DNA of 64,000 nt. Origin: Liolophura sinensis (taxonomy: Eukaryota > Mollusca > Polyplacophora > Chitonida > Chitonidae). The notes under the pieces were generated by a model. It saw nothing but the letters and a program-made list of their open reading frames with translations, was not told the DNA's origin and made no database searches. Below, piece by piece: positions 919 through 34,515 of this stretch (position 1 is its first letter; each line of letters opens with the position of its first letter). The DNA lies in NCBI RefSeq assembly GCF_032854445.1, contig NC_088300.1:48642984-48706983 (forward strand), read 5' to 3'. A program made the position numbers and the translations under genes.

Positions 919-1172
919 AATAAAAACGGTATGCACAAGTATGTACACATTTACATTTATTGTCTGATAACCCGTAATAAATCTTTCATGTGAATTAATC
1001 TAGGTCAACTTTCAAACAACATGTAAGTACACATAACTTGTGGTTCAACATGTTTATTTTAAAATACTAGCGTTATAATAATAATTTTCTGAAAACAAAA
1101 TAAACACCTAAGCCTTAAATACATATTTCCGTAAGTAAACCTTTGTAGAATTTATTTTGATCGCTGTATAAA

Positions 1173-1226
1173 GATGTCAACACGGTGAGCTATTGCATGA
1201 GATGTTAACAGGGTAAGCAATTGCAT
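1173..1226 (+). repeat. 26-bp direct duplication inside the spacer (shown for unit 1)
   Basis: Two imperfect copies, 1173-1198 and 1201-1226, each reading GATGT(C/T)AACA(C/G)GGT and ending ATTGCAT, lie 28 bp apart. All array units carry the pair. The divergent edge unit at 34.8 kb has only one copy. Confidence 0.85.
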
Positions 1227-1384
1227 AAGTCTGTCTCTGTAAAGCTGTTACAATGCATAAAACACATGGGGTTGAAAAAAAGTCCAGGACAATTGTCATT
1301 TTAAACTTTTAACCATTTCCATATTCCTTAAACTCAAGCCCTAGCACGCCGGGATGATAAAAAACATTTGAATTAACCCAGTGC

Positions 1385-1450
1385 AACAGGATATTGCCCA
1401 CACTGCATTATGCAGTTAGGTTAAGCCATGAAATAAATGGTGTTCTGCTG
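1385..1450 (+). promoter_or_regulatory. Conserved proximal promoter region of the SRP RNA units (shown for copy 1)
   Basis: The bases just upstream of every RNA copy are almost invariant, and recognisable even in the decayed relic at the right edge. They contain CAGTGCAACAGGATATTGCC, then the odd-centred palindrome ACTGCATTATGCAGT (1402-1416, -49 to -35), then an AT-rich GAAATAAAT (-21 to -13). Pol III genes with external promoters carry a proximal element and a TATA-like box in roughly these places, so these are candidates. Assignment to PSE or TATA is inference; internal A/B-box-like sequences in the RNA may also contribute. Confidence 0.55.
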
Positions 1451-1749
1451 GCTGGGAGTTGTGGCGTGCTCCTGTAATCTAGTTGCTTGGAGGCCGGGTG
1501 TGGCGGATGGCTTGAAGTTGGGATTCTTGCTAAGAGTTGGTCTGTGTTGATTGGGTGTCCGCGCTAAGATGGGCATCAATATGGGTACGACGAGGGAGCT
1601 CAGTGTATCCAGGTTGTCTAAGGAGGAGGGAACCGGTCCAGGGCGGAAACGCAGCAGGCAAAACCTCCCGTGTTCAGCAGTAGTGGGATCGCGCCCGTGA
1701 ATAGGCAACGCTTCGTAACCTGACTAAAACAGTCAGACCCACTCCTGTT
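1451..1749 (+). ncRNA. SRP RNA (7SL RNA) gene, copy 1 (reference copy)
   Basis: Signal recognition particle RNA, the scaffold that binds SRP9/14, SRP19, SRP54 and SRP68/72 and pauses and targets ribosomes to the ER. The match runs end to end with animal 7SL. The Alu-domain start is GCTGGGAGTTGTGGCGTG at +1, followed by CTGTAATCTAG and TTGGAGGC. Next come GGGTGTCCGCGCTAAG and GGGCATCAATATGG. The helix 6 GGAG tetraloop is at 1595-1598 (+145) and CCAGGTTGTCTAAGGAG follows. The helix 8 GGAA tetraloop lies at 1645-1648 (+195) with AGCAGG beside it, then AGTAGTGGGATCGCGCC and GTGAATAG. The 3' Alu strand CCTGACTAAAACAGTCAGAC ends at CCTGTTTT. The 299-nt length equals that of human 7SL. TTTT at 1748-1751 and TTTTT at 1758-1762 fit Pol III termination. 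Function is inferred from family conservation. Confidence 0.97.
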
Positions 1750-1767
1750 TTGGCACCTTTTTGTTTT
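1748..1767 (+). terminator. Pol III oligo-T terminators of SRP RNA unit (shown for copy 1)
   Basis: Three T runs follow the RNA 3' end: TTTT at 1748-1751, TTTTT at 1758-1762 and TTTT at 1764-1767. The same series recurs in nearly all units. The first run sits exactly where the 7SL family 3' end is expected; the later runs would act as fail-safe stops. Confidence 0.8.
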
Positions 1768-2341
1768 ATTTGACTGGTATTTTGCGCCGAACTTTCTATT
1801 TTACATATCAATGAAACCGGTATGCACAAGTATGTACAGGACTACATTTATTGTCTGATAACCCGTAATAAATCTTTCATGTGAATTAATCTAGGTCAAC
1901 TTTCAAACAACATGTAAGTACACATACCTTGTGGTTCAACATGTTTATTTTAAAATAGTAGCGTTATAATTATAATTTTCTTAAAACAAAATAAACACCG
2001 AAGCCTTAAATACATATTTCCGTAAGTAAACCTTTGTAGAATTTATTTTGATCGCTGTATAAAGATGTCAACAGGGTGAGCTATTGCATAAGATGTTAAC
2101 AGGGTAAGCAATTGCATAACTCCGACTCTGTAAAGCTGTTACAATGCATAAAACACATGGGGTTGAAAAAAAGTCCAGGACAATTGTCATTTTAAACTTT
2201 TAACCATTTCCATATTCCTTAATTTCAAGTCCTAGCACGCCGGGATGATAAAAAACATTTGAATTAACCCAGTGCAACAGGATATTGCCCACACTGCATT
2301 ATGCAGTTAGGTTAAGCCATGAAATAAATGGTGTTCTGCTG

Positions 2342-2640
2342 GCTGGGAGTTGTGGCGTGCTCCTGTAATCTAGTTACTTGGAGGCCGGGTGTGGCGGATG
2401 GCTTGAAGTTGGGATTCTTGCTAAGATTTGGTCTGTGTTGATTGGGTGTCCGCGCTAAGATGGGCATCAATATGGGTACGACGAGGGAGCTCAGTGTATC
2501 CAGGTTGTCTAAGGAGGAGGGAACCGGTCCAGGGCGGAAACGCAGCAGGCAAAACCTCCCGTGTTCAGCAGTAGTGGGATCGCGCCCGTGAATAGGCAAC
2601 GCTTCGTAGCCTGACTAAAACAGTCAGACCCACTCCTGTT
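2342..2640 (+). ncRNA. SRP RNA (7SL RNA) gene, copy 2
   Basis: Full-length copy with GGAG and GGAA loops and oligo-T stop intact. Private changes are CTAGTTACTTGG (A for G in the Alu domain) and CTAAGATTTGG. It belongs to the slightly diverged left edge of the array. Confidence 0.95.
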
Positions 2641-3231
2641 TTGGCACCTTTTTGTTTCATTTCACTGGTATTTTGCGCCGTACTTTCTATCTTACATATC
2701 AATAAAAACGGTATGCACAAGTATGTACACATTTACATTTATTGTCTGATAACCCGTAAAAAATCTATCATCTGAATTATTCTAGGTCAACTTTCAAACA
2801 ACATGTAACTACACATACCTTGTGGTTCAACATGATTATTTTAAAATAGTAGCGTTATAATTATAATTTTCTGAAAACAAAATAAACACCTAAGCCTTAA
2901 ATACATATTTCCGTAAGTAAACCTTTGTAGAATTTATTTTGATCGCTGTATAAAGATGTCAACACGGTGAGCTATTGCATAAGATGTTAACAGGGTAAGC
3001 AATTGCATAACTCCGACTCTGTAAAGCTGCTACAATGCATAAAACACATGGGGTTGAAAAAAAGGCCAGGACAATTGTCATTTTAAACTTTTAACCATTT
3101 CCATGTTTCTTAAATTTAAGCCCTAGCACGCCGGGATGATAAAAACATTTGAATTAACCCAGTGCAACAGGATATTGCCCACACTGCATTATGCAGTTAG
3201 GTTAAGCCATGAAATAAATGGTGTTCTGCTG

Positions 3232-3530
3232 GCTGGGAGTTGTGGCGTGCTCCTGTAATCTAGCTGCTTGGAGGCCGGGTGTGGCGGATGGCTTGAAGTT
3301 GGGATTCTTGCTAAGAGTTGGTCTGTGTTGATTGGGTGTCCGCGCTAAGATGGGCATCAATATGGGTACGACGAGGGAGCTCAGTGTATCCAGGTTGTCT
3401 AAGGAGGAGGGAGCCGGTCCAGGGCGGAAACGCAGCAGGCAAAACCTCCCGTGTTCAGCAGTTGTGGGACCGCGCCCGTGAATAGGCAACGCTTCGAAAC
3501 CTGACTAAAACAGTCAGACCCACACCTGTT
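3232..3530 (+). ncRNA. SRP RNA (7SL RNA) gene, copy 3
   Basis: Full length but one of the more diverged copies. It has GGGACCGCGCC instead of GGGATCGCGCC, GAGCCGGTCC instead of GAACCGGTCC, and GCAGTTGTGGG instead of GCAGTAGTGGG. The 3' end reads ACACCTGTTTT, and the second T run is interrupted (CACCTGTTTG). It may be a less functional edge copy. Confidence 0.93.
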
Positions 3531-4121
3531 TTGGCACCTGTTTGTTTCATTTGACTGGTTTTTTCCGCCGAACTTTCTATTTTACATATCAATGAAACCG
3601 GTATGCACAAGTATGTACAGGACTACATTTATTGTCTGATAACCCGTAATAAATCTTTCATGTGAATTAATCTAGGTCAACTTTCAAACAACATGTAAGT
3701 ACACATACCTTGTGGTTCAACATGTTTATTTTAAAATAGTAGCGTTATAATTATAATTTTCTGAAAACAAAATAAACACCGAAGCCTTAAATACATATTT
3801 CCGTAAGTAAACCTTTGTAGAATTTATTTTGATCGCTGTATAAAGATGTCAACAGGGTGAGCTATTGCATAAGATGTTAACAGGGTAAGCAATTGCATAA
3901 CTCCGACTTTGTAAAGCTGTTACAATGCATAAAACAAAAGGGTTGAAAAAAAGGCCAGGACAATTGTCATTTTAAACTTTTAACCATTTCCATGTTCCTT
4001 GAATTTAAGCCCTAGCACGCCGGGATGATAAAAAACATTTGAATTAACCCAGTGCAACAGGATATTGCCCACACTGCATTATGCAGTTAGGTTAAGCCAT
4101 GAAATAAATGGTGTTCTGCTG

Positions 4122-4420
4122 GCTGGGAGTTGTGGCGTGCTCCTGTAATCTAGCTGCTTGGAGGCCGGGTGTGGCGGATGGCTTGAAGTTGGGATTCTTG
4201 CTAAGAGTTGGTCTGTGTTGATTGGGTGTCCGCGCTAAGATGGGCATCAATATGGGTACGACGAGGGAGCTCAGTGTATCCAAGTTGTCTAAGGAGGAGG
4301 GAATCGGTCCAGGGCGGAAACGCAGCAGGCAAAACCTCCCGTGTTCAGCAGTAGTGGGATCGCGCCCGTGAATAGGCAACGCTTCGTAACCTGACTAAAA
4401 CAGTCAGACCCACTCCTGTT
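4122..4420 (+). ncRNA. SRP RNA (7SL RNA) gene, copy 4
   Basis: Full length. It carries the C-to-T variant GGAATCGGTCC near helix 8 and a private TCCAAGTTGTC. The downstream spacer has TTGACTGATTTTTTG, the type shared with copies 9 and 16. Confidence 0.95.
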
Positions 4421-5012
4421 TTGGCACCTTTTTGTTTTATTTGACTGATTTTTTGCGCCGTACTTTCTATCTTACATTTAAATAAAAACGGTATGCACAA
4501 GTATGTACACATTTACATTTATTGTCTGATAACCTGTAAAAAATCTATCATCTGAATTATTCTAGGTCAACTTTCAAACAACATGTAAGTACACATACCT
4601 TGTGGTTCAACACGTTTATTTTAAAATAGTAGCGTTATAATTATAATTTTCTGAAAACAAAATAAACACCGAAGCCTTAAATACATATTTCCGTAAGTAA
4701 ACCTTTGTAGAATTTATTTTGATCGCTGTATAAAGATGTCAACAGGGTGAGCTATTGCACAAGATGTTAACAGGGTAAGCAATTGCATAACTCCGACTCT
4801 GTAAAGCTGCTACAATGCATAAAACACATGGGGTTGAAAAAAAGGCCAGGACAATTGTCATTTTAACATTTTAACCATTTCCATGTTTCTTAAATTTAAG
4901 CCCTAGCACGCCGGGATGATAAAAAACATTTGAATTAACCCAGTGCAACAGGATATTGCCCACACTGCATTATGCAGTTAGGTTAAGCCATGAAATAAAT
5001 GGTGTTCTGCTG

Positions 5013-5311
5013 GCTGGGAGTTGTGGCGTGCTCCTGTAATCTAGTTGCTTGGAGGCCGGGTGTGGCGGATGGCTTGAAGTTGGGATTCTTGCTAAGAGTT
5101 GGTCTGTGTTGATTGGGTGTCCGCGCTAAGATGGGCATCAATATGGGTACGACGAGGGAGCTCAGTGTATCCAGGTTGTCTAAGGAGGAGGGAACCGGTC
5201 CAGGGCGGAAACGCAGCAGGCAAAACCTCCCGTGTTCAGCAGTAGTGGGATCGCGCCCGTGAATAGGCAACGCTTCGTAACCTGACTAAAACGGTCAGAC
5301 CCACTCCTGTT
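5013..5311 (+). ncRNA. SRP RNA (7SL RNA) gene, copy 5
   Basis: Full length, CTAGTTGC type. The 3' strand reads AAACGGTCAG rather than AAACAGTCAG, which removes one pair of the short CTGACT/AGTCAG complementarity. The 7-unit block repeated at +6,229 bp begins in this unit. Confidence 0.96.
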
Positions 5312-5903
5312 TTGGCACCTTTTTGTTTTATTTGACTGGTATTTTGCGCCCTCCTTTCTATCTTACATATAAATAAAAACGGTATGCACAAGTATGTACA
5401 CATTTACATTTATTGTCAGATAACCTGTAAAAAATCTGTCATCTGAATTATTCTAGGTCAACTTTCAAACAACATGTAAGTACACATACCTTGTGGTTCA
5501 ACATGTTTATTTTAAAATAGTAGCGTTATAATTATAATTTTCTGAAAACAAAATAAACACCTAAGCCTTAAATACATATTTCCGTAGGTAATCCTTTGTA
5601 GAATTTATTTTGATCGCTGTATAAAGATGTCCACAGGGTGAGCTATTGCACAAGATGTTAACAGGGTAAGCAATTGCATAACTCCGACTCTGTAAAGCTG
5701 CTACAATGCATAAAACACATGGGGTTGAAAAAAAGGCCAGGACAATTGTCATTTTAAACTTTTAACCATTTCCATGTTCCTTAAATTCAAGCCCTAGCTC
5801 GCCGGGATGATAAAAAACATTTGAATTAACCCAGTGCAACAGGATATTGCCCACACTGCATTATGCAGTTAGGTTAAGCCATGAAATAAATGGTGTTCTG
5901 CTG

Positions 5904-6202
5904 GCTGGGAGTTGTGGCGTGCTCCTGTAATCTAGCTGCTTGGAGGCCGGGTGTGGCGGATGGCTTGAAGTTGGGATTCTTGCTAAGAGTTGGTCTGTGT
6001 TGATTGGGTGTCCGCGCTAAGATGGGCATCAATATGGGTACGACGAGGGAGCTCAGTGTATCCAGGTTGTCTAAGGAGGAGGGAACCGGTCCAGGGCGGA
6101 AACGCAGCAGGCAAAACCTCCCGTGTTCAGCAGTAGTGGGATCGCGCCCGTGAATAGGCAACGCTTCGTAACCTGACTAAAACAGTCAGACCCACTCCTG
6201 TT
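5904..6202 (+). ncRNA. SRP RNA (7SL RNA) gene, copy 6
   Basis: Full length, CTAGCTGC type with AAACAGTCAG, close to the inferred consensus. It is matched by copy 13 at +6,229 bp. Confidence 0.96.
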
Positions 6203-6794
6203 TTGGCACCTTTTTGTTTTATTTGACTGGTTTTTTGCGCCGTACTTTCTATCTTACATATAAATAAAACCGTTATGCACAAGTATGTACACATTTACAC
6301 TTATTGTCAGATAACCTGTAAAAAATCTATCATCTGAATTATTCTAGGTCAACTTTCAAACAACATGTAAGTACACATACCTTGTGGTTCAACATGTTTA
6401 TTTTAAAATAGTAGCGTTATAATTACAATTTTTTTAAAACAAAATAAACACCTAAGTCTTAAATACATATATCCGTAAGTAAGCCTTTGTAGAATTTATT
6501 TTGATCGCTGTATAAAGATGTCAACAGGGTGAGCTATTGCACAAGATGTTAACAGGGTAAGCAATTGCATAACTCCGACTCTGTAAAGCTGCTACAATGC
6601 ATAAAACACATGGGGTTGAAAAAAAGGCCAGGACAATTGTCATTTTAACCTTTTAACCATTTCCATGTTTCTTAAATTCAAGTCCTAGCATACCGTGATG
6701 ATAAAAAACATTTGAATTAACCCAGTGCAACAGGATATTGCCCACACTGCATTATGCAGTTAGTTTAAGCCATGAAATAAATGGTGTTCTGCTG

Positions 6795-7093
6795 GCTGGG
6801 AGTTGTGGCGTGCTCCTGTAATCTAGTTGCTTCGAGGCCGGGTGTGGCGGATGGCTTGAAGTTGGGATTCTTGCTAAGAGTTGGTCTGTGTTGATTGGGT
6901 GTCCGCGCTAAGATGGGCATCAATATGGGTACGACGAGGGAGCTCAGTGTATCCAGGTTGTCTAAGGAGGAGGGAACCGGTCCAGGGCGGAAACGCAGCA
7001 GGCAAAACCTCCCGTGTTCAGCAGTAGTGGGATCGCGCCCGTGAATAGGCAACGCTTCGTAACCTGACTAAAACAGTCAGACCCACTCCTGTT
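6795..7093 (+). ncRNA. SRP RNA (7SL RNA) gene, copy 7
   Basis: Full length. It has GCTTCGAGG in place of GCTTGGAGG in the Alu domain, a change shared only with copy 14, its counterpart one block away. Confidence 0.95.
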
Positions 7094-7682
7094 TTGGCAC
7101 CTTTTTGTTTTATTTGACTGGTTTTTTGCGCCGTACTTTCTATCTTACATATAAATAAAACCGGTATGCACAAGTATGTACACATTTACACTTATTGTCA
7201 GATAACCTGTAAAAAATCTGTCATCTGAATTATTCTAGGTCAACTTGCAAACATGTAAGTACACATACCTTGTGGTTCAACATGTTTATTTTAAAATAGT
7301 AGCGTTATAATTATAATTTTCTTAAAACAAAATAAACACCTAAGCCTTAAATACATATTTCCGTAAGTAAACCTTTGTAGAATTTATTTTGATCGCTGTA
7401 TAAAGATGTCAACAGGGTGAGCTATTGCACAAGATGTTAACAGGGTAAGCAATTGCATAACTCCGACTCTGTGAAGCTGCTACAATGCATAAAACACATG
7501 GGGTTGAAAAAAAGGCCAGGACAATTGTCATTTTAACCTTTTAACCATTTCCATGTTTCTTAAATTCAAGTCCTAGCATACCGTGATGATAAAAAACAAT
7601 TGAATTAACCCAGTGCAACAGGATATTGCCCACACTGCATTATGCAGTTAGTTTAAGCCATGAAATAAATGGTGTTTTGCTG

Positions 7683-7981
7683 GCTGGGAGTTGTGGCGTG
7701 CTCCTGTAATCTAGTTGCTTGGAGGCCGGGTGTGGCGGATGGCTTGAAGTTGGGATTCTTGCTAAGAGTTGGTCTGTGTTGATTGGGTGTCCGCGCTAAG
7801 ATGGGCATCAATATGGGTACGACGAGGGAGCTCAGTGTATCCAGGTTGTCTAAGGAGGAGGGAACCGGTCCAGGGCGGAAACGCAGCAGGCAAAACCTCC
7901 CGTGTTCAGCAGTAGTGGGATCGCGCCCGTGAATAGGCAACGCTTCGTAACCTGACTAAAACAGTCAGACCCACTCCTGTT
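7683..7981 (+). ncRNA. SRP RNA (7SL RNA) gene, copy 8
   Basis: Full-length consensus RNA in an 888-bp unit. The base just upstream of the start is changed (GTGTTTTGCTG), as in copies 15 and 25. Confidence 0.96.
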
Positions 7982-8570
7982 TTGGCACCTTTTTGTTTTA
8001 TTTGACTGGTTTTTTGCGCCGTACTTTCTATCTTACATATAAATAAAACCGGTATGCACAAGTATGTACACATTTACACTTATTGTCAGATAACCTGTAA
8101 AAAATCTGTCATCTGAATTATTCTAGGTCAACTTGCAAACATGTAAGTACACATACCTTGTGGTTCAACATGTTTATTTTAAAATAGTAGCGTTATAATT
8201 ATAATTTTCTTAAAACAAAATAAACACCTAAGCCTTAAATACATATTTCCGTAAGTAAACCTTTGTAGAATTTATTTTGATCGCTGTATAAAGATGTCAA
8301 CAGGGTGAGCTATTGCACAAGATGTTAACAGGGTAAGCAATTGCATAACTCCGATTCTGTAAAGCTGCTACAATGCATAAAACACATGGGGTTGAAAAAA
8401 AGGCCAGGACAATTGTCATTTTAAACTTTTAACCATTTCCATGTTCCTTGAATTTAAGCCCTAGCACGCCGGGATGATAAAAAACATTTGAATTAACCCA
8501 GTGCAACAGGATATTGCCCACACTGCATTATGCAGTTAGGTTAAGCCATGAAATAAATGGTGTTCTGCTG

Positions 8571-8869
8571 GCTGGGAGTTGTGGCGTGCTCCTGTAATCT
8601 AGCTGCTTGGAGGCCGGGTGTGGCGGATGGCTTGAAGTTGGGATTCTTGCTAAGAGTTGGTCTGTGTTGATTGGGTGTCCGCGCTAAGATGGGCATTAAT
8701 ATGGGTACGACGAGGGAGCTCAGTGTATCCAGGTTGTCTAAGGAGGAGGGAATCGGTCCAGGGCGGAAACGCAGCAGGCAAAACCTCCCGTGTTCAGCAG
8801 TAGTGGGATCGCGCCCGTGAATAGGCAACGCTTCGTAACCTGACTAAAACAGTCAGACCCACTCCTGTT
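8571..8869 (+). ncRNA. SRP RNA (7SL RNA) gene, copy 9
   Basis: Full length with GGAATCGGTCC and GGGCATTAAT. Both changes recur in copy 16, one block to the right. Confidence 0.95.
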
Positions 8870-9461
8870 TTGGCACCTTTTTGTTTTATTTGACTGATTT
8901 TTTGCGCCGTACTTTCTATCTTACATTTAAATAAAAACGGTATGCACAAGTATGTACACATTTACATTTATTGTCTGATAACCTGTAAAAAATCTATCAT
9001 CTGAATTATTCTAGGTCAACTTTCAAACAACATGTAAGTACACATACCTTGTGGTTCAACATGTTTATTTTAAAATAGTAGCGTTATAATTATAATTTTC
9101 TGAAAACAAAATAAACACCGAAGCCTTAAATACATATTTCCGTAAGTAAACCTTTGTAGAATTTATTTTGATCGCTGTATAAAGATGTCAACAGGGTGAG
9201 CTATTGCACAAGATGTTAACAGGGTAAGCAATTGCATAACTCCGACTCTGTAAAGCTGCTACAATGCATAAAACACATGGGGTTGAAAAAAAGGCCAGGA
9301 CAATTGTCATTTTAACATTTTAACCATTTCCATGTTTCTTAAATTTAAGCCCTAGCACGCCGGGATGATAAAAAACATTTGAATTAACCCAGTGCAACAG
9401 GATATTGCCCACACTGCATTATGCAGTTAGGTTAAGCCATGAAATAAATGGTGTTCTGCTG

Positions 9462-9760
9462 GCTGGGAGTTGTGGCGTGCTCCTGTAATCTAGTTGCTTG
9501 GAGGCCGGGTGTGGCGGATGGCTTGAAGTTGGGATTCTTGCTAAGAGTTGGTCTGTGTTGATTGGGTGTCCGCGCTAAGATGGGCATCAATATGGGTACG
9601 ACGAGGGAGCTCAGTGTATCCAGGTTGTCTAAGGAGGAGGGAACCGGTCCAGGGCGGAAACGCAGCAGGCAAAACCTCCCGTGTTCAGCAGTAGTGGGAT
9701 CGCGCCCGTGAATAGGCAACGCTTCGTAACCTGACTAAAACGGTCAGACCCACTCCTGTT
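9462..9760 (+). ncRNA. SRP RNA (7SL RNA) gene, copy 10
   Basis: Full length, same subtype as copy 5 (CTAGTTGC, AAACGGTCAG). Confidence 0.96.
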
Positions 9761-10352
9761 TTGGCACCTTTTTGTTTTATTTGACTGGTATTTTGCGCCC
9801 TCCTTTCTATCTTACATATAAATAAAAACGGTATGCACAAGTATGTACACATTTACATTTATTGTCAGATAACCTGTAAAAAATCTGTCATCTGAATTAT
9901 TCTAGGTCAACTTTCAAACAACATGTAAGTACACATACCTTGTGGTTCAACATGTTTATTTTAAAATAGTAGCGTTATAATTATAATTTTCTGAAAACAA
10001 AATAAACACCGAAGCCTTAAATACATATTTCCGTAGGTAATCCTTTGTAGAATTTATTTTGATCGCTGTATAAAGATGTCCACAGGGTGAGCTATTGCAC
10101 AAGATGTTAACAGGGTAAGCAATTGCATAACTCCGACTCTGTAAAGCTGCTACAATGCATAAAACACATGGGGTTGAAAAAAGGGCCAGGACAATTGTCA
10201 TTTTAAACTTTTAACCATTTCCATGTTCCTTAAATTCAAGCCCTAGCTCGCCGGGATGATAAAAAACATTTGAATTAACCCAGTGCAACAGGATATTGCC
10301 CACACTGCATTATGCAGTTAGGTTAAGCCATGAAATAAATGGTGTTCTGCTG

Positions 10353-10651
10353 GCTGGGAGTTGTGGCGTGCTCCTGTAATCTAGCTGCTTGGAGGCCGGG
10401 TGTGGCGGATGGCTTGAAGTTGGGATTATTGCTAAGAGTTGGTCTGTGTTGATTGGGTGTCCGCGCTAAGATGGGCATCAATATGGGTACGACGAGGGAG
10501 CTCAGTGTATCCAGGTTGTCTAAGGAGGAGGGAACCGGTCCAGGGCGGAAACGCAGCAGGCAAAACCTCCCGTGTTCAGCAGTAGTGGGATCGCGCCCGT
10601 GAATAGGCAACGCTTCGTAACCTGACTAAAACAGTCAGACCCACTCCTGTT
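10353..10651 (+). ncRNA. SRP RNA (7SL RNA) gene, copy 11
   Basis: Full length. The change GGGATTATTGC (A for C) is shared only with copy 18 at +6,229 bp. Confidence 0.95.
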
Positions 10652-11241
10652 TTGGCACCTTTTTGTTTTATTTGACTGGTTTTTTGCGCCGTACTTTCTA
10701 TCTTACATATAAATAAAACCGTTATGCACAAGTATGTACACATTTACACTTATTGTCAGATAACCTGTAAAAAATCTATCATCTGAATTATTCTAGGTCA
10801 ACTTTCAAACAACATGTAAGTACACATACCTTGTGGTTCAACATGTTTATTTTAAAATAGTAGCGTTATAATTATAATTTTCTGAAAACAAAATAAACAC
10901 CTAAGCCTTAAATACATATATCTGTAAGCCTTTGTAGAATTTATTTTGATCGCTGTATAAAGATGTCAACAGGGTGAGCTATTGCAGAAGATGTTAACAG
11001 GGTAAGCAATTGCATAACTCCGACTCTGTAAAGCTGCTACAATGCATAAAACACATGGGGTTGAAAAAAAGGCCAGGACAATTGTCATTTTAACCTTTTA
11101 ACCATTTCCATGTTTCTTAAATTCAAGCCCTAGCACGCCGGGATGATAAAAAAAACATTTGAATTAACCCAGTGCAACAGGATATTGCCCACACTGCATT
11201 ATGCAGTTAGGTTAAGCCATGAAATAAATGGTGTTCTGCTG

Positions 11242-23701: not shown

Positions 23702-24000
23702 GCTGGGAGTTGTGGCGTGCTCCTGTAATCTAGTTGCTTGGAGGCCGGGTGTGGCGGATGGCTTGAAGTTGGGATTCTTGCTAAGAGTTGGTCTGTGTTG
23801 ATTGGGTGTCCGCGCTAAGATGGGCATCAATATGGGTACGACGAGGGAGCTCAGTGTATCCAGGTTGTCTAAGGAGGAGGGAACCGGTCCAGGGCGGAAA
23901 CGCAGCAGGCAAAACCTCCCGTGTTCAGCAGTAGTGGGATCGCGCCCGTGAATAGGCAACGCTTCGTAACCTGACTAAAACGGTCAGACCCACTCCTGTT
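23702..24000 (+). ncRNA. SRP RNA (7SL RNA) gene, copy 26
   Basis: Full length, subtype of copies 10 and 17 (shift from copy 17 is 8,011 bp, nine units). Confidence 0.96.
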
Positions 24001-24592
24001 TTGGCACCTTTTTGTTTTATTTGACTGGTATTTTGCGCCCTCCTTTCTATCTTACATATAAATAAAAACGGTATGCACAAGTATGTACACATTTACATTT
24101 ATTGTCAGATAACCTGTAAAAAATCTGTCATCTGAATTATTCTAGGTCAACTTTCAAACAACATGTAAGTACACATACCTTGTGGTTCAACATGTTTATT
24201 TTAAAATAGTAGCGTTATAATTATAATTTTCTGAAAACAAAATAAACACCGAAGCCTTAAATACATATTTCCGTAGGTAATCCTTTGTAGAATTTATTTT
24301 GATCGCTGTATAAAGATGTCCACAGGGTGAGCTATTGCACAAGATGTTAACAGGGTAAGCAATTGCATAACTCCGACTCTGTAAAGCTGCTACAATGCAT
24401 AAAACACATGGGGTTGAAAAAAAGGCCAGGACAATTGTCATTTTAAACTTTTAACCATTTCCATGTTCCTTAAATTCAAGCCCTAGCTCGCCGGGATGAT
24501 AAAAAACATTTGAATTAACCCAGTGCAACAGGATATTGCCCACACTGCATTATGCAGTTAGGTTAAGCCATGAAATAAATGGTGTTCTGCTG

Positions 24593-24891
24593 GCTGGGAG
24601 TTGTGGCGTGCTCCTGTAATCTAGCTGCTTGGAGGCCGGGTGTGGCGGATGGCTTGAAGTTGGGATTCTTGCTAAGAGTTGGTCTGTGTTGATTGGGTGT
24701 CCGCGCTAAGATGGGCATCAATATGGGTACGACGAGGGAGCTCAGTGTATCCAGGTTGTCTAAGGAGGAGGGAACCGGTCCAGGGCGGAAACGCAGCAGG
24801 CAAAACCTCCCGTGTTCAGCAGTAGTGGGATCGCGCCCGTGAATAGGCAACGCTTCGTAACCTGACTAAAACAGTCAGACCCACTCCTGTT
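24593..24891 (+). ncRNA. SRP RNA (7SL RNA) gene, copy 27
   Basis: Full length, near consensus, like copies 6 and 13. Confidence 0.96.
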
Positions 24892-25483
24892 TTGGCACCT
24901 TTTTGTTTTATTTGACTGGTTTTTTGCGCCGTACTTTCTATCTTACATATAAATAAAACCGTTATGCACAAGTATGTACACATTTACACTTATTGTCAGA
25001 TAACCTGTAAAAAATCTATCATCTGAATTATTCTAGGTCAACTTTCAAACAACATGTAAGTACACATACCTTGTGGTTCAACATGTTTATTTTAAAATAG
25101 TAGCGTTATAATTATAATTTTCTTAAAACAAAATAAACACCTAAGCCTTAAATACATATTTCCGTAAGTAAACCTTTGTAGAATTTATTTTGATCGCTGT
25201 ATAAAGATGTCAACAGGGTGAGCTATTGCACAAGATGTTAACAGGGTAAGCAATTGCATAACTCCGATTCTGTAAAGCTGCTACAATGCATAAAACACAT
25301 GGGGTTGAAAAAAAGGCCAGGACAATTGTCATTTTAAACTTTTAACCATTTCCATGTTCCTTGAATTTAAGCCCTAGCACGCCGGGATGATAAAAAACAT
25401 TTGAATTAACCCAGTGCAACAGGATATTGCCCACACTGCATTATGCAGTTAGGTTAAGCCATGAAATAAATGGTGTTCTGCTG

Positions 25484-25783
25484 GCTGGGAGTTGTGGCGT
25501 GCTCCTGTAATCTAGCTGCTTGGAGGCCGGGTGTGGCGGATGGCTTGAAGTTGGGATTCTTGCTAAGAGTTGGTCTGTGTTGATTGGGTGTCCGCGCTAA
25601 GATGGGCATCAATATGGGTACGACGAGGGGAGCTCAGTGTATCCAGGTTGTCTAAGGAGGAGGGAACCGGTCCAGGGCGGAAACGCAGCAGGCAAAACCT
25701 CCCGTGTTCAGCAGTAGTGGGATCGCGCCCGTGAATAGGCAACGCTTCGTAACCTGACTAAAACGGTCAGACCCACTCCTGTT
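25484..25783 (+). ncRNA. SRP RNA (7SL RNA) gene, copy 28 (one-base insertion in helix 6 loop)
   Basis: Otherwise full length, but reads ACGAGGGGAGCTCAG where all others have ACGAGGGAGCTCAG. The extra G falls in or beside the GGAG tetraloop of helix 6, the SRP19 contact, and could impair assembly. It has AAACGGTCAG in the 3' strand. Confidence 0.92.
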
Positions 25784-26372
25784 TTGGCACCTTTTTGTTT
25801 TATTTGACTGGTATTTTGCGCCCTCCTTTCTATCTTACATATAAATAAAAACGGTATGCACAAGTACGTACACATTTACATTTATTGTCAGATAACCTGT
25901 AAAAAATCTGTCATCTGAATTATTCTAGGTCAACTTTCAAACAACATGTAAGTACACATACCTTGTGGTTCAACATGTTTATTTTAAAATAGTAGCGTTA
26001 TAATTATAATTTTCTGAAAACAAAATAAACACCTAAGCCTTAAATACATATATCTGTAAGCCTTTGTAGAATTTATTTTGATCGCTGTATAAAGATGTCA
26101 ACAGGGTGAGCTATTGCAGAAGATGTTAACAGGGTAAGCAATTGCATAACTCCGACTCTGTAAAGCTGCTACAATGCATAAAACACGTGGGGTTGAAAAA
26201 AAGGCCAGGACAATTGTCATTTTAACCTTTTAACCATTTCCATGTTTCTTAAATTCAAGCCCTTGCACGCCGGGATGATAAAAAAACATTTGAATTAACC
26301 CAGTGCAACAGGATATTGCCCACACTGCATTATGCAGTTAGGTTAAGCCATGAAATAAATGGTGTTCTGCTG

Positions 26373-26671
26373 GCTGGGAGTTGTGGCGTGCTCCTGTAAT
26401 CTAGTTGCTTGGAGGCCGGGTGTGGCGGATGGCTTGAAATTGGGATTCTTGCTAAGAGTTGGTCTGTGTTGATTGGGTGTCCGCGCTAAGATGGGCATCA
26501 ATATGGGTACGACGAGGGAGCTCAGTGTATCCAGGTTGTCTAAGGAGGAGGGAACCGATCCAGGGCGGAAACGCAGCAGGCAAAACCTCCCGTGTTCAGC
26601 AGTAGTGGGACCGCGCCCGTGAATAGGCAACGCTTCGTAACCTGACTAAAACGGTCAGACCCACTCCTGTT
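26373..26671 (+). ncRNA. SRP RNA (7SL RNA) gene, copy 29
   Basis: Full length, same as copy 19 (TGAAATTGGG, AACCGATCC, GGGACCGCGCC, AAACGGTCAG). Confidence 0.95.
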
Positions 26672-27260
26672 TTGGCACCTTTTTGTTTTATTTGACTGGT
26701 TTTTTGCGCCGTACTTTCTATCTTACATATAAATAAAACCGTTATGCACAAGTATGTACAAATTTACACTTATTGTCAGATAACCTGTAAAAAATCTGTC
26801 ATCTGAATTATTCTAGGTCAACTTGCAAACATGTAAGTACACATACCTTGTGGTTCAACATGTTTATTTTAAAATAGTAGCGTTATAATTATAATTTTCT
26901 TAAAACAAAATAAACACCTAAGCCTTAAATACATATTTCCGTAAGTAAACCTTTGTAGAATTTATTTTGATCGCTGTATAAAGATGTCAACAGGGTGAGC
27001 TATTGCACAAGATGTTAACAGGGTAAGCAATTGCATAACTCCGATTCTGTAAAGCTGCTACAATGCATAAAACACATGGGGTTGAAAAAAAGGCCAGGAC
27101 AATTGTCATTTTAAACTTTTAACCATTTCCATGTTCCTTGAATTCAAGCCCTAGCACGCCGGGATGATAAAAAACATTTGAATTAACCCAGTGCAACAGG
27201 ATATTGCCCACACTGCATTATGCAGTTAGGTTAAGCCATGAAATAAATGGTGTTCTGCTG

Positions 27261-27559
27261 GCTGGGAGTTGTGGCGTGCTCCTGTAATCTAGCTGCTTGG
27301 AGGCCGGGTGTGGCGGATGGCTTGAAGTTGGGATTCTTGCTAAGAGTTGGTCTGTGTTGATTGGGTGTCCGCGCTAAGATGGGCATCAATATGGGTACGA
27401 CGAGGGAGCTCAGTGTATCCAGGTTGTCTAAGGAGGAGGGAATCGGTCCAGGGCGGAAACGCAGCAGGCAAAACCTCCCGTGTTCAGCAGTAGTGGGATC
27501 GCGCCCGTGAATAGGCAACGCTTCGTAACCTGACTAAAACAGTCAGACCCACTCCTGTT
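27261..27559 (+). ncRNA. SRP RNA (7SL RNA) gene, copy 30
   Basis: Full length, subtype of copies 20 and 21. Confidence 0.95.
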
Positions 27560-28151
27560 TTGGCACCTTTTTGTTTTATTTGACTGGTATTTTGCGCCCT
27601 CCTTTCTATCTTACATATAAATAAAAACGGTATGCACAAGTATGTACACATTTACATTTATTGTCAGATAACCTGTAAAAAATCTATCATCTGAATTATT
27701 CTAGGTCAACTTTCAAACAACATATAAGTACACATACCTTGTGGTTCAACATGTTTATTTTAAAATAGTAGCGTTATAATTATAATTTTCTGAAAACAAA
27801 ATAAACACCGAAGCCTTAAATACATATTTCCGTAAGTAAACCTTTGTAGAATTTATTTTGATCGCTGTATAAAGATGTCAACAGGGTGAGCTATTGCACA
27901 AGATGTTAACAGGGTAAGCAATTGCATAACTCCGACTCTGTAAAGCTGCTACAATGCATAAAACACATGGGGTTGAAAAAAAGGCCAGGACAATTGTCAT
28001 TTTAACATTTTAACCATTTCCATGTTTCCTAAATTTAAGCCCTAGCACGCCGGGATGATAAAAAACATTTGAATTAACCCAGTGCAACAGGATATTGCCC
28101 ACACTGCATTATGCAGTTAGGTTAAGCCATGAAATAAATGGTGTTCTGCTG

Positions 28152-28450
28152 GCTGGGAGTTGTGGCGTGCTCCTGTAATCTAGTTGCTTGGAGGCCGGGT
28201 GTGGCGGATGGCTTGAAGTTGGGATTCTTGCTAAGAGTTGGTCTGTGTTGATTGGGTGTCCGCGCTAAGATGGGCATCAATATGGGTACGACGAGGGAGC
28301 TCAGTGTATCCAGGTTGTCTAAGGAGGAGGGAATCGGTCCAGGGCGGAAACGCAGCAGGCAAAACCTCCCGTGTTCAGCAGTAGTGGGATCGCGCCCGTG
28401 AATAGGCAACGCTTCGTAACCTGACTAAAACGGTCAGACCCACTCCCGTT
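28152..28450 (+). ncRNA. SRP RNA (7SL RNA) gene, copy 31
   Basis: Full length, recombinant-looking mix of CTAGTTGC with GGAATCGGTCC and AAACGGTCAG. The 3' end reads ACTCCCGTTTT. The same combination recurs in copy 35, four units (3,560 bp) away. Confidence 0.95.
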
Positions 28451-29039
28451 TTGGCACCTTTTTGTTTTATTTGACTGGTATTTTGCGCCCTCCTTTCTAT
28501 CTTACATATAAATAAAAACGGTATGCACAAGTATGTACACATTTACATTTATTGTCAGATAACCTGTAAAAAATCTGTCATCTGAATTATTCTAGGTCAA
28601 CTTTCAAACAACATGTAAGTACACATACCTTGTGGTTCAACATGTTTATTTTAAAATAGTAGCGTTATAATTATAATTTTCTGAAAACAAAATAAACACC
28701 TAAGCCTTAAATACATATATCTGTAAGCCTTTGTAGAATTTATTTTGATCGCTGTATAAAGATGTCAACAGGGTGAGCTATTGCAGAAGATGTTAACAGG
28801 GTAAGCAATTGCATAACTCCGACTCTGTAAAGCTGCTACAATGCATAAAACACATGGGGTTGAAAAAAAGGCCAGGACAATTGTCATTTTAACCTTTTAA
28901 CCATTTCCATGTTTCTTAAATTTAAGCCCTAGCACGCCGGGATGATAAAAAAACATTTGAATTAACCCAGTGCAACAGGATATTGCCCATACTGCATTAT
29001 GCAGTTAGGTTAAGCCATGAAATAAATGGTGTTCTGCTG

Positions 29040-29338
29040 GCTGGGAGTTGTGGCGTGCTCCTGTAATCTAGTTGCTTGGAGGCCGGGTGTGGCGGATGGC
29101 TTGAAGTTGGGATTCTTGCTAAGAGTTGGTCTGTGTTGATTGGGTGTCCGCGCTAAGATGGGCATCAATATGGGTACGACGAGGGAGCTCAGTGTATCCA
29201 GGTTGTCTAAGGAGGAGGGAACCGATCCAGGGCGGAAACGCAGCAGGCAAAACCTCCCGTGTTCAGCAGTAGTGGGACCGCGCCCGTGAATAGGCAACGC
29301 TTCGTAACCTGACTAAAACGGTCAGACCCACTCCTGTT
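29040..29338 (+). ncRNA. SRP RNA (7SL RNA) gene, copy 32
   Basis: Full length, with AACCGATCC and GGGACCGCGCC like copies 19 and 29 but TGAAGTTGGG. Confidence 0.95.
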
Positions 29339-29930
29339 TTGGCACCTTTTTGTTTTATTTGACTGGTATTTTGCGCCGTACTTTCTATCTTACATATAAA
29401 TAAAAACGGTATGCACAAGTATGTACACATTTACATTTATTGTCTGATAACCCGTAATAAATCTATCATCTGAATTATTCTAGGTCAACTTTGAAACAAC
29501 ATGTAACTACACATACCTTGTGGTTCAATATGTTTATTTTAAAATAGTAGCGTTATAATTATAATTTTCTGAAAACAAAATAAACACCTAAGCCTTAAAT
29601 ACATATATCTGTAAGTAAGCCTTTGTAGAATTTATTTTGATCGCTGTATAAAGATGTCAACAGAGTGAGCTATTGCACAAGATGTTAACAGATTAAGCAA
29701 TTGCATAACTCCGACTCTGTAAAGCTGCTACAATGCATAAAACACATGGGGTGGAAAAAAAGGCCAGGACAATTGTCATTTTAAACTTTTAACCATTTCC
29801 ATGTTTCTTAAATTCAAGCCCTAGCACGCCGGGATGATAAAAAACATTTGAATTAACCCAGTGCAACAGGATATTGCCCACACTGCATTATGCAGTTAGG
29901 TTAAGCCATGAAATAAATGGTGTTCTGCTG

Positions 29931-30229
29931 GCTGGGAGTTGTGGCGTGCTCCTGTAATCTAGCTGCTTGGAGGCCGGGTGTGGCGGATGGCTTGAAGTTG
30001 GGATTCTTGCTAAGAGTTGGTCTGTGTTGGTTGGGTGTCCGCGCTAAGATGGGCATCAATATGGGTACGACGAGGGAGCTCAGTGTATCCAGGTTGTCTA
30101 AGGAGGAGGGAACCGGTCCAGGGCGGAAACGCAGCAGGCAAAACCTCCCGTGTTCAGCAGTAGTGGGATCGCGCCCGTGAATAGGCAACGCTTCGTAACC
30201 TGACTAAAACAGTCAGACCCACTCCTGTT
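29931..30229 (+). ncRNA. SRP RNA (7SL RNA) gene, copy 33
   Basis: Full length. The change TGTTGGTTGGGTG (G for A) is shared only with copy 37. Confidence 0.95.
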
Positions 30230-30818
30230 TTGGCACCTTTTTGTTTTATTTGACTGGTTTTTTGCGCCGTACTTTCTATCTTACATATAAATAAAACCGT
30301 TATGCACAAGTATGTACACATTTACATTTATTGTCAGATAACCTGTAAAAAATCTATCATCTGAATTATTCTAGGTCAACTTGCAAACATGTAAGTACAC
30401 ATACCTTGTGGTTCAACATGTTTATTTTAAAATAGTAGCGTTATAATTATAATTTTCTGAAAACAAAATAAACACCTAAGCCTTAAATACATATTTCCGT
30501 AAGTAAACCTTTGTAGAATTTATTTTGATCGCTGTATAAAGATGTCAACAGGGTGAGCTATTGCACAAGATGTTAACAGGGTAAGCAATTGCATAACTCC
30601 GATTCTGTAAAGCTGCTACAATGCATAAAACACATGGGGTTGAAAAAAAGGCCAGGACAATTGTCATTTTAACCTTTTAACCATTTCCATGTTTCTTAAA
30701 TTTAAGCCCTAGCACGCCGGGATGATAAAAAACATTTGAATTAACCCAGTGCAACAGGATATTGCCCACACTGCATTATGCAGTTAGGTTAAGCCATGAA
30801 ATAAATGGTGTTCTGCTG

Positions 30819-31117
30819 GCTGGGAGTTGTGGCGTGCTCCTGTAATCTAGCTGCTTGGAGGCCGGGTGTGGCGGATGGCTTGAAGTTGGGATTCTTGCTA
30901 AGAGTTGGTCTGTGTTGATTGGGTGTCCGCGCTAAGATGGGCATTAATATGGGTACGACGAGGGAGCTCAGTGTATCCAGGTTGTCTAAGGAGGAGGGAA
31001 CCGGTCCAGGGCGGAAACGCAGCAGGCAAAACCTCTCGTGTTCAGCAGTAGTGGGATCGCGCCCGTGAATAGGCAACGCTTCGTAACCTGACTAAAACAG
31101 TCAGACCCACTCCTGTT
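30819..31117 (+). ncRNA. SRP RNA (7SL RNA) gene, copy 34
   Basis: Full length with GGGCATTAAT and a private AACCTCTCGTG for AACCTCCCGTG on the 3' side of helix 8. The downstream T run is lengthened (CTGTTTTTTTTGCGCC). Confidence 0.95.
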
Positions 31118-31711
31118 TTGGCACCTTTTTGTTTCATTTGACTGTTTTTTTTGCGCCGTACGTTCTATCTTACATATAAATAAAAACGGTATGCACAAGT
31201 ATGTACACATTTACATTTATTGTCTGATAACCCGTAAAAAAATCTATCATCTGAATTATTCTAGGTCAACTTTCAAACAACATGTAAGTACACATACCTT
31301 GTGGTTCAACATGTTTATTTTAAAATAGTAGCGTTATAATTATAATTTTCTTAAAACAAAATAAACACCTAAGCCTTAAATACATATATCCGTAAGTAAG
31401 CCTTTGTAGAATTTATTTTGATCGCTGTATATAGATGTCAACAGGGTGAGCTATTGCACAAGATGTTAACAGGGTAAGCAATTGCATAACTCCGACTCTG
31501 TAAAGCTGCTACAATGCATAAAACACATGGGGTTGAAAAAAAGGCCAGGACAATTGTCATTTTAACCTTTTAACCATTTCCATATTCCTTAAATTCAAGT
31601 CCTAGCATACCGTGATGATAAAAAACATTTGAATTAACCCAGTGCAACAGGATATTGCCCACACTGCATTATGCAGTTAGCTTAAGCCATGAAATAAATG
31701 GTGTTCTGCTG

Positions 31712-32010
31712 GCTGGGAGTTGTGGCGTGCTCCTGTAATCTAGTTGCTTGGAGGCCGGGTGTGGCGGATGGCTTGAAGTTGGGATTCTTGCTAAGAGTTG
31801 GTCTGTGTTGATTGGGTGTCCGCGCTAAGATGGGCATCAATATGGGTACGACGAGGGAGCTCAGTGTATCCAGGTTGTCTAAGGAGGAGGGAATCGGTCC
31901 AGGGCGGAAACGCAGCAGGCAAAACCTCCCGTGTTCAGCAGTAGTGGGATCGCGCCCGTGAATAGGCAACGCTTCGTAACCTGACTAAAACGGTCAGACC
32001 CACTCCCGTT
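31712..32010 (+). ncRNA. SRP RNA (7SL RNA) gene, copy 35
   Basis: Full length, same subtype as copy 31, including ACTCCCGTTTT at the 3' end. Confidence 0.95.
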
Positions 32011-32599
32011 TTGGCACCTTTTTGTTTTATTTGACTGGTATTTTGCGCCCTCCTTTCTATCTTACATATAAATAAAAACGGTATGCACAAGTATGTACAC
32101 ATTTACATTTATTGTCAGATAACCTGTAAAAAATCTGTCATCTGAATTATTCTAGGTCAACTTTCAAACAACATGTAAGTACACATACCTTGTGGTTCAA
32201 CATGTTTATTTTAAAATAGTAGCGTTATAATTATAATTTTCTGAAAACAAAATAAACACCTAAGCCTTAAATACATATATCTGTAAGCCTTTGTAGAATT
32301 TATTTTGATCGCTGTATAAAGATGTCAACAGGGTGAGCTATTGCAGAAGATGTTAACAGGGTAAGCAATTGCATAACTCCGACTCTGTAAAGCTGCTACA
32401 ATGCATAAAACACATGGGGTTGAAAAAAAGGCCAGGACAATTGTCATTTTAACCTTTTAACCATTTCCATGTTTCTTAAATTTAAGCCCTAGCACGCCGG
32501 GATGATAAAAAAACATTTGAATTAACCCAGTGCAACAGGATATTGCCCACACTGCATTATGCAGTTAGGTTAAGCCATGAAATAAATGGTGTTCTGCTG

Positions 32600-32898
32600 G
32601 CTGGGAGTTGTGGCGTGCTCCTGTAATCTAGTTGCTTGGAGGCCGGGTGTGGCGGATGGCTTGAAGTTGGGATTCTTGCTAAGAGTTGGTCTGTGTTGAT
32701 TGGGTGTCCGCGCTAAGATGGGCATCAATATGGGTACGACGAGGGAGCTCAGTGTATCCAGGTTGTCTAAGGAGGAGGAAACCGGTCCAGGGCGGAAACG
32801 CAGCAGGCAAAACCTCCCGTGTTCAGCAGTAGTGGGATCGCGCCCGTGAATAGGCAACGCTTCGTAACCTGACTAAAACAGTCAGACCCACTCCTGTT
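32600..32898 (+). ncRNA. SRP RNA (7SL RNA) gene, copy 36
   Basis: Full length with a private GGAGGAAACCGG for GGAGGGAACCGG. Downstream spacer matches that of copy 34, 1,781 bp (two units) to the left. Confidence 0.95.
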
Positions 32899-33491
32899 TT
32901 GGCACCTTTTTGTTTCATTTGACTGTTTTTTTTGCGCCGTACGTTCTATCTTACATATAAATAAAAACGGTATGCACAAGTATGTACACATTTACATTTA
33001 TTGTCTGATAACCCGTAAAAAATCTATCATCTGAATTATTCTAGGTCAACTTTCAAACAACATGTAAGTACACATACCTTGTGGTTCAACATGTTTATTT
33101 TAAAATAGTAGCGTTATAATTATAATTTTCTGAAAACAAAATAAACACCTAAGCCTTAAATACATATATCCGTAAGTAAGCCTTTGTAGAATTTATTTTG
33201 ATCGCTGTATATAGATGTCAACAGGGTGAGCTATTGCACAAGATGTTAACAGGGTAAGCAATTGCATAACTCCGACTCTGTAAAGCTGCTACAATGCATA
33301 AAACACATGGGGTTGAAAAAAAGGCCAGGACAATTGTCATTTTAACCTTTTAACCATTTCCATATTCCTTAAATTCAAGTCCTAGCATACCGTGATGATA
33401 AAAAACATTTGAATTAACCCAGTGCAACAGGATATTGCCCACACTGCATTATGCAGTTAGCTTAAGCCATGAAATAAATGGTGTTCTGCTG

Positions 33492-33790
33492 GCTGGGAGT
33501 TGTGGCGTGCTCCTGTAATCTAGCTGCTTGGAGGCCGGGTGTGGCGGATGGCTTGAAGTTGGGATTCTTGCTAAGAATTGGTCTGTGTTGGTTGGGTGTC
33601 CGCGCTAAGATGGGCATCAATATGGGTACGACGAGGGAGCTCAGTGTATCCAGGTTGTCTAAGGAGGAGGGAATCGGCCCAGGGCGGAAACGCAGCAGGC
33701 AAAACCTCCCGTGTTCAGCAGTAGTGGGATCGCGCCCGTGAATAGGCAACGCTTCGTAACCTGACTAAAACAGTCAGACCCACTCCTGTT
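33492..33790 (+). ncRNA. SRP RNA (7SL RNA) gene, copy 37 (last full-length copy)
   Basis: Full length with several changes: TGTTGGTTGGG, AAGAATTGG and GGAATCGGCCC. It is the last copy with complete Alu and S domains. Confidence 0.94.
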
Positions 33791-34382
33791 TTGGCACCTT
33801 TTTGTTTTATTTGACTGGTTTTTTGCGCCCTCCTTTCTATTTTAAATAAAAATAAAAACGGTATGCACAAGTATGTACACATTTACATTTATTGTCTGAT
33901 AACCTGTAAAAAAATCTATCATCTGAATTATTCTAGGTCAACTTTCAAACAACATGTAAGTACACATACCTTGTGGTTCAACATGTTTATTTTAAAATAG
34001 TAGCGTTATAATTATAATTTTCTGAAAACAAAATAAACACCTAAGCCTTAAATACATATTTCCGTAAGTAAACCTTTGTAGAATTTATTTTGATCGCTGT
34101 ATAAAGATGTCAACAGGGTGAGCTATTGCACAAGATGTTAACAGGGTAAGCAATTGCATAACTTCGATTCTGTAAAGCTGCTACAATGCATAAAACACAT
34201 GGGGTTGAAAAAAGGCCAGGACAATTGTCATTTTAAACTTTTAACCATTTCCATGTTCCTTGAATTCAAGCCCTAGCACGCCGGGATGATAAAAAACATT
34301 TGAATTAACCCAGTGCAACAGGATATTGCCCACACTGCATTATGCAGTTAGGTTAAGCCATGAAATAAATGGTGTTCTGCTG

Positions 34383-34515
34383 GCTGGGAGTTGTGGCGTG
34401 CTCCTGTAATCTAGCTGCTTGGAGGCCGGGTGTGGCGGATGGCTTGAAGTTGGGATTCTTGCTAAGAGTTGGTCTGTGTTGATTGGGTGTCCGCGCTAAG
34501 ATGGGCACCTGTTTT
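34383..34515 (+). pseudogene. SRP RNA copy 38, S domain deleted
   Basis: Bases +1 to about +125 are normal, then GATGGGCA jumps directly to CCTGTTTTGGCACC, the normal 3' terminus. About 168 bp are missing, covering helices 6 and 8 and the 3' Alu strand. Promoter region and terminator remain, so a short transcript of about 130 nt is conceivable, but it could not form a normal particle. Confidence 0.9.

Follow-up and report, generated by a model that had tools for sequence, protein, structure and literature searches.

A head-to-tail array of 37 full-length SRP (7SL) RNA genes in a chiton genome

In the window (the whole 64,000-nt stretch of DNA analysed here), near-identical SRP (7SL) RNA genes follow one another head to tail at a single chromosomal site, which lies next to HERC1. 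SRP RNA is the RNA component of the particle that directs proteins into the secretory pathway of the cell. Scanning the whole window (cmscan, Rfam 15) matched 37 of 37 units to RF00017 (Metazoa_SRP), full length and on the + strand (1451..33789), with scores of 234.1–248.4 bits (best E 3.3e-67) against a gathering score of 70 and a unit-to-unit spacing of 888–893 bp, confirming an initial annotation that had read the repeat as a uniform cluster of full-length SRP genes on this strand. The signature loops it had pointed out, GGAG at +145 and GGAA at +195, which we take to be those of helix 6 and helix 8, are kept in 37/37 copies, as is the TTTT it gave as a stop at +298, a T-run terminator directly after the RNA. 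Copy 28 (25484) carries a single extra G beside the GGAG loop. Pairwise identity among the units is 94.7–100% (mean 97.0%), and they share a ~590-bp spacer, whose matches listed genome-wide all lie at the array locus (41/41, with 40 of the 41 candidates scored). The features are as follows, scores being those for RF00017.

1..918, +, LINE-like (non-LTR retrotransposon-like) insertion, 3' end, read by eye
919..34507, +, tandem array, 37 complete SRP RNA units and the start of a 38th, period 888–893 bp
1451..1748, +, SRP RNA gene 1, 247.6 bits
2342..2639, +, SRP RNA gene 2, 245.6 bits
3232..3529, +, SRP RNA gene 3, 236.7 bits
4122..4419, +, SRP RNA gene 4, 242.1 bits
5013..5310, +, SRP RNA gene 5, 245.5 bits
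5904..6201, +, SRP RNA gene 6, 248.4 bits
6795..7092, +, SRP RNA gene 7, 244.1 bits
7683..7980, +, SRP RNA gene 8, 247.6 bits
8571..8868, +, SRP RNA gene 9, 244.9 bits
9462..9759, +, SRP RNA gene 10, 245.5 bits
10353..10650, +, SRP RNA gene 11, 248.3 bits
11242..11539, +, SRP RNA gene 12, 241.5 bits
12133..12430, +, SRP RNA gene 13, 248.4 bits
13024..13321, +, SRP RNA gene 14, 244.1 bits
13912..14209, +, SRP RNA gene 15, 247.6 bits
14800..15097, +, SRP RNA gene 16, 244.9 bits
15691..15988, +, SRP RNA gene 17, 246.3 bits
16582..16879, +, SRP RNA gene 18, 248.3 bits
17471..17768, +, SRP RNA gene 19, 234.1 bits
18359..18656, +, SRP RNA gene 20, 247.4 bits
19250..19547, +, SRP RNA gene 21, 247.4 bits
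20141..20438, +, SRP RNA gene 22, 245.5 bits
21032..21329, +, SRP RNA gene 23, 244.0 bits
21923..22220, +, SRP RNA gene 24, 247.6 bits
22811..23108, +, SRP RNA gene 25, 244.6 bits
23702..23999, +, SRP RNA gene 26, 245.5 bits
24593..24890, +, SRP RNA gene 27, 248.4 bits
25484..25782, +, SRP RNA gene 28, one extra G beside the GGAG loop, 239.7 bits
26373..26670, +, SRP RNA gene 29, 234.1 bits
27261..27558, +, SRP RNA gene 30, 247.4 bits
28152..28449, +, SRP RNA gene 31, 246.4 bits
29040..29337, +, SRP RNA gene 32, 238.2 bits
29931..30228, +, SRP RNA gene 33, 244.1 bits
30819..31116, +, SRP RNA gene 34, 241.8 bits
31712..32009, +, SRP RNA gene 35, 246.4 bits
32600..32897, +, SRP RNA gene 36, 243.2 bits
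33492..33789, +, SRP RNA gene 37, 243.1 bits
34383..34515, +, 38th copy, internally deleted, its first 125 nt fused to the terminator end, from sequence, not among the hits above gathering score
35082..35238, +, 39th copy, diverged remnant covering model 96–252 only, 93.1 bits

The bounds first proposed for the array, 919 and 34507, fit the sequence: at the former, unit sequence picks up again behind the 3' end of the LINE-like element, and at the latter an internal deletion cuts the 38th copy. The insertion, ~5 kb in length, sits between the array and decayed units to its left in flanking segment L013, with unit matches stopping at L013:5986 and restarting at window position 919. Decayed SRP units continue left of the window (RF00017 gives those at the left edge 210 and 137 bits), and two truncated SRP copies, the 38th and 39th, lie at the right edge; both array edges are decayed units running into other sequence.

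A minus-strand frame repeated with the unit, originally given as 95 codons, measures 100 codons from stop to stop and occurs 35 times in the array; it gives us no cause to regard it as a coding frame. ARAGORN found no tRNA genes in the window, and when one unit was scanned for other RNA genes at permissive Rfam settings, three matches besides SRP came up, all far below the gathering score (E 0.7–2.1). SRP genes can hide in an apparently ordinary satellite, and the locus serves as a warning of this. Elsewhere, in a collection of genome contigs, a 20-base SRP motif matched one archaeal MAG contig whose surroundings look protein-coding by eye, which we take as chance. A 17-base motif has matches in 21 viral contigs.

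Across the genome, 40 of 47 SRP candidates were scored, of which 38 lie at the array locus; the others are one solitary SRP gene, whose RF00017 score of 258 bits is above that of every array copy, and one dispersed, decayed copy of 146 bits without a T-run. The seven unscored candidates from this search may include five known array-edge fragments, and the family search, with 26 of its 4744 first-look candidates scored, may have missed weak dispersed copies.

The array consensus differs from the solitary gene at 43 of 298 sites. Among 120 pairs of the model, pairing survived a change on both sides in five and on a single side in 14; five are broken and four gained in the array, and 16 are non-standard in both genes. 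The two genes form 98 and 99 standard pairs, compared with 87.4 +/- 2.6 under random placement of the changes, and 0 of 2000 such placements reached 98, although the five double changes only equal the maximum of 2000 random trials. Copy 6 and the solitary gene differ at 31 of 94 sites in helix 5 and at 11 of 204 in the other domains (1/45 in the Alu 5' domain, 10/159 in the S domain; Fisher p 1.3e-9). No helix 5 bias is seen when the left-edge decayed copy is compared with copy 6 (6/94; Alu 5' 4/45; S domain 6/159). Because pairing is kept beyond chance and the differences are concentrated in helix 5, the comparison indicates, at the level of sequence, that the divergence between array and solitary gene reflects selection for SRP structure. 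One copy, folded to minimum energy, did no better than shuffled sequence (z 0.41), being equalled or surpassed by 125 of 200 shuffles.

Within the array, variable columns are rarer in the genes (26/299) than in the distal spacer (98/496; p 2e-5). The 100 bp upstream are about as invariant as the gene (9/102), and the spacer at -300..-151 is almost so (pi 0.016 vs 0.011 for the gene). In the left-edge decayed unit, the 100 bp upstream have diverged more than the gene, at 13/103 positions versus 17/298, and the spacer at -300..-101 at 13/200, about as little as the gene. Since nearby spacer is nearly as uniform in both the array and the left-edge unit, the low variation of the genes may partly be regional homogenisation. 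Mutations within the array do not avoid pair breakage (8 of 26 vs 9.3 expected), although no pair-breaking allele occurs in more than 3 of 37 copies. In the comparison with the solitary gene, copy 28 (Rfam 239.7 bits), for which 47 pairs were counted only because its one-base insertion had been left unaligned, was dropped from the counts.

Private differences fall largely in the nine edge units (1–4 and 33–37) of the 37, which hold 40 of 57. A segment seven units long is repeated at a distance of 6229 bp with 5 mismatches, and exact repeats in the array extend to 2844 bp at most. Edge units richest in private differences, together with duplicated blocks, therefore argue for unequal exchange. 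The locus displays each feature by which concerted evolution is recognised, namely a uniform period, a single locus, edge units that are the most diverged and block duplications. We propose that unequal exchange and the duplication of several units at a time have homogenised the array, as happens in 5S rRNA and rDNA arrays, that selection on SRP function would have kept the array RNA intact, and that a large part of the SRP RNA in the animal most likely comes from the array, with a single long-diverged solitary gene alongside.

Taken as a whole, the array is very probably a multigene family of SRP (7SL) RNA genes at one place in the genome. It might instead be a satellite that happens to carry an SRP copy, passively expanded and mostly silent, with the solitary gene making the SRP RNA. 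That gene scores higher and alone might suffice, mutations in the array break pairs about as often as expected, and the spacer in part varies hardly more than the gene; however, a silent repeat accounts poorly for a divergence from the solitary gene that preserves structure and is focused in helix 5, for a terminator and signature loops retained in every one of 37 copies, and for the decay of copies outside the homogenised zone (210, 137 and 146 bits), and we judge it unlikely. A SINE-like or retroposed cluster of SRP pseudogenes, for which there is a model in the 7SL-derived SINEs that the available text of PMC10886601 describes in other animals, is far harder to reconcile with uniform spacing, a shared ~590-bp spacer and a single locus without a dispersed family (38 of the 40 scored candidates, of 47, being at the array), and its probability is negligible.

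The number of copies could also have been inflated in assembly, through joined haplotypes or false repetition, from a true array that is much shorter. Consistent with this, the genome was assembled from HiFi reads at 14x with a mean read of 8.3 kb and 1.24% heterozygosity (as given in the text of PMC11068029), the seven-unit stretch is nearly duplicated (5 mismatches in 6229), and four pairs of whole units are identical. Yet there is no N in the window or in flanking segments L013 and L014, the longest exact repeat is shorter than the mean read, 33 whole-unit sequences among the 37 are distinct, and both edges are decayed units passing into other sequence, all of which makes such inflation very improbable.

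From sequence features, we infer Pol III transcription of the array copies and a promoter in each array unit. Upstream of the array genes and the solitary gene, only an AT-rich stretch within -30 is in common by eye, with no other clear motif. The published RNA-seq for the chiton genome is described as poly-A selected (PMC11068029). That one genome holds two diverged classes of SRP RNA gene is new here. We raise tentatively, as a rather doubtful extension, that both the arrayed and the solitary class may be functional and long-diverged, with different helix 5 and upstream sequence, and perhaps with tissue- or stage-specific use leading to two kinds of SRP particle. Such use would liken them to the 5S rRNA genes of the frog, which fall into oocyte and somatic classes. 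The 43 diagnostic sites make the source class of SRP RNA in each tissue directly testable.

Head-to-tail tandem arrangement is familiar for 5S rRNA genes, and the likeness to 5S organisation drawn by the initial annotation is apt, as the same genome carries tandem 5S genes on another contig (C4), at spacings of about 385 bp and multiples. Both arrays consist of a short gene of Pol III type and spacer, head to tail, although the 5S array encodes another RNA, has ~385 bp spacing rather than 888–893 bp, and presumably differs in promoter type.

Few-copy 7SL genes of the same family, RF00017, are reported in other metazoans, with one SRP RNA copy in Didemnum vexillum (PMC5006418) and, for Schistosoma mansoni, a text count of eight probable candidates and a table row reading 12 and 4+1 (PMC2770079), in contrast to the 37 in one array of the chiton. 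The arrangement was initially called notable, which holds, but it has a precedent in a hydroid: the paper on the Hydractinia genome speaks of tandem arrays of SRP RNA (PMC11067881), the only such report found in a literature search outside which most subscription papers lie. Its text names SRP RNA, 5S rRNA and tRNA among the arrays of an earlier H. echinata draft assembly and, as in the chiton, describes evenly spaced, near-identical ncRNA copies with similar spacers. Hydractinia is, however, a cnidarian and so of another phylum, its arrays span many ncRNA classes in both species (rRNA, U1, U2, U5, U6, U3 and tRNAs), and the passages on its arrays give no SRP copy, edge or selection analysis. 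Also new is a mollusc SRP RNA array with its full anatomy, which joins the one earlier report of such arrays found in animals. It suggests that concerted evolution of the 5S type is possible for 7SL genes too, beside a diverged solitary paralogue.

Scanned against all Rfam families, the window gave 37 full-length Metazoa_SRP matches and one partial match, all on the + strand, and no other family above gathering score. The genes are spaced at 888-893 bp, and the motif positions and array limits put forward in the initial annotation are correct. Beyond the uniform genes, the right edge carries two incomplete copies:

start 34383, + strand: 38th SRP copy, first 125 nt, then skips to the terminator
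35082-35238, + strand: remnant of a 39th SRP copy, partial Metazoa_SRP match

In the searched genome (609,464,459 bases, 632 contigs), the window is part of contig C6 (82.49 Mb). The units to its left are decayed: one full-length SRP copy scores 210 bits and one damaged copy 137 bits, beside smaller fragments. Between them and the 37 are ~5 kb that read by eye as a damaged LINE. As the flanking units are decayed on both sides, the uniform array is set between old, decaying edges. All 41 spacer matches listed (40 of 41 candidates scored) fall at this locus, 38 inside the window and 3 to its left. The spacer holds a 28-bp direct duplication (e.g. window 12744-12798) at 38 places, one before each of genes 1-38, while by eye a single version of this sequence precedes the 39th remnant. 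Right of the array is a HERC1-like gene, whose ORF at 40137-41174 is 50-58% identical to the first 20 proteins listed, HERC1 being the one named protein among them; RCC1 repeats occur in three later ORFs. Within this region (57527-57867), a 134-bp unit is repeated 2.5 times; by eye, GGTAAG or GGTAAGT comes after a similar exon-like stretch in its copies, which suggests a possible tandem exon duplication.

Genome searches (26 of 4744 and 40 of 47 candidates scored) found two SRP loci outside the array locus, both on C6:

C6:52970097-52970394, minus strand: solitary SRP gene, 258 bits, followed by a run of seven T
C6 ~2.43 Mb: dispersed SRP copy, 146 bits, without a T-run

Since only part of the candidates was scored, other weak copies may have been missed. 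By eye, a near-perfect inverted repeat (arms ~75 nt each) lies ~1 kb from the solitary gene (C6 ~52.969 Mb; 308-463 of stretch L001), and near the decayed dispersed copy (1265-1310 of stretch L029) there is a histone 3' stem-loop-like match of 30.2 bits, below the gathering score of 34. In a 41-row tree, rooted for drawing only and with a bootstrap not fully settled, one strong split (100/100) separates the solitary gene and dispersed copy from all array and left-edge copies.

Of 298 positions, 43 distinguish the array consensus from the solitary gene, and we compared the pairing of the two over the Rfam structure with changes unpolarised.

Fate of 120 Rfam pairs, array consensus versus solitary gene
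unchanged and paired: 75/120
unchanged and non-standard in both: 16/120
both sides changed, pairing kept: 5/120
one side changed, pairing kept: 14/120
broken in the array: 5/120
gained: 4/120
unpaired in both: 1/120

Standard pairs number 98 in the array consensus and 99 in the solitary gene, while random placement of the same changes left 87.4 +/- 2.6, with a maximum of 96 in 2000 trials. Double-changed pairs averaged 1.0 at random, the observed 5 equalling the maximum among these trials. By domain, copy 6 differs from the solitary gene at 31 of 94 helix 5 sites, 1 of 45 sites in the Alu 5' domain and 10 of 159 in the S domain (Fisher p 1.3e-9). We infer that such helix 5-biased, compensated divergence is the pattern expected of an SRP RNA evolving under function, where the linker helix would drift with compensation while the protein-binding ends hold. 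The decayed left-edge copy shows no helix 5 bias relative to copy 6 (Alu 5' 4/45, S domain 6/159, helix 5 6/94).

Within the array, variable columns are scarcer in the gene (26/299) than in the distal spacer (98/496; p 2e-5), and the 37 copies comprise 22 distinct gene sequences; however, the spacer at -300..-151 is almost as uniform as the gene, which counts against a special constraint on the latter. Nor do gene mutations within the array avoid pair breakage (8 of 26, 9.3 of 26 expected). Yet pair-breaking alleles occur in only 1-3 copies, and the four commonest gene alleles (17, 12, 10 and 4 copies) either fall in unpaired columns or leave pairing intact, a suggestive point in favour of pairing constraint. 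Constraint on single copies seems weak, as expected when a gene is one of dozens. Folding an array copy by minimum energy was uninformative. Against the array consensus, the left-edge unit has changes at 17/298 gene sites, at 13/103 sites in the 100 bp next to the gene on its upstream side and at 13/200 in -300..-101, and so its upstream region is not specially conserved.

Units 1-4 hold 27 and units 33-37 hold 13 of the 57 private differences. A near-copy of 5013-11241 (seven unit lengths), differing by 5 mismatches, lies 6229 bp downstream, and other unit pairs are >99.5% alike at lags of 4, 5, 9, 10, 12, 14, 16, 17 and 21 units (lags to 25 examined). The pattern is that of unequal exchange, multi-unit duplication and stranded edges. 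Assembly error as the source of the array is a limited worry, given that the locus contains no N and its longest exact repeat is 2844 bp, whereas HiFi reads average 8.3 kb; some concern remains as coverage was only 14x (Liolophura japonica genome paper, PMC11068029).

In the transcription model, Pol III would start at the G at +1 of each array gene and stop at TTTT at +298, with five T at +308 serving as a putative backup terminator, which 36 of 37 copies carry, and the RNA would join SRP. By eye, array genes and the solitary gene share no upstream motif but AT-rich sequence within -30, so promoter use could differ between the two classes.

Elsewhere in the genome, COX1 matches occur seven times at ~15.5-kb steps on contig C99 and once on C632; C99 appears to be the mitochondrial genome in concatenated form, which may be an artefact of assembly. 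In a protein database clustered at 90%, the mitochondrial COX1 lists chitons in first (94%) and fourth (93%) place, and the entries in between are gastropods.

The same genome carries tandem 5S genes (47 of 15286 candidates scored) on contig C4 at 7.98-8.04 Mb (7984520-8036231), plus one at 8.08 Mb, the spacings including 382-392 bp and multiples of it; five further copies on C238 are among the matches listed. The all-Rfam scan of the window placed no 5S gene in the SRP array. A literature search, whose reach into subscription papers was small, found no mollusc SRP RNA array. The Hydractinia genome paper (PMC11067881) reports many ncRNAs as arrayed, and SRP RNA is one of those it names for an earlier H. 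echinata assembly; on that account, an SRP RNA tandem array as such is already known.
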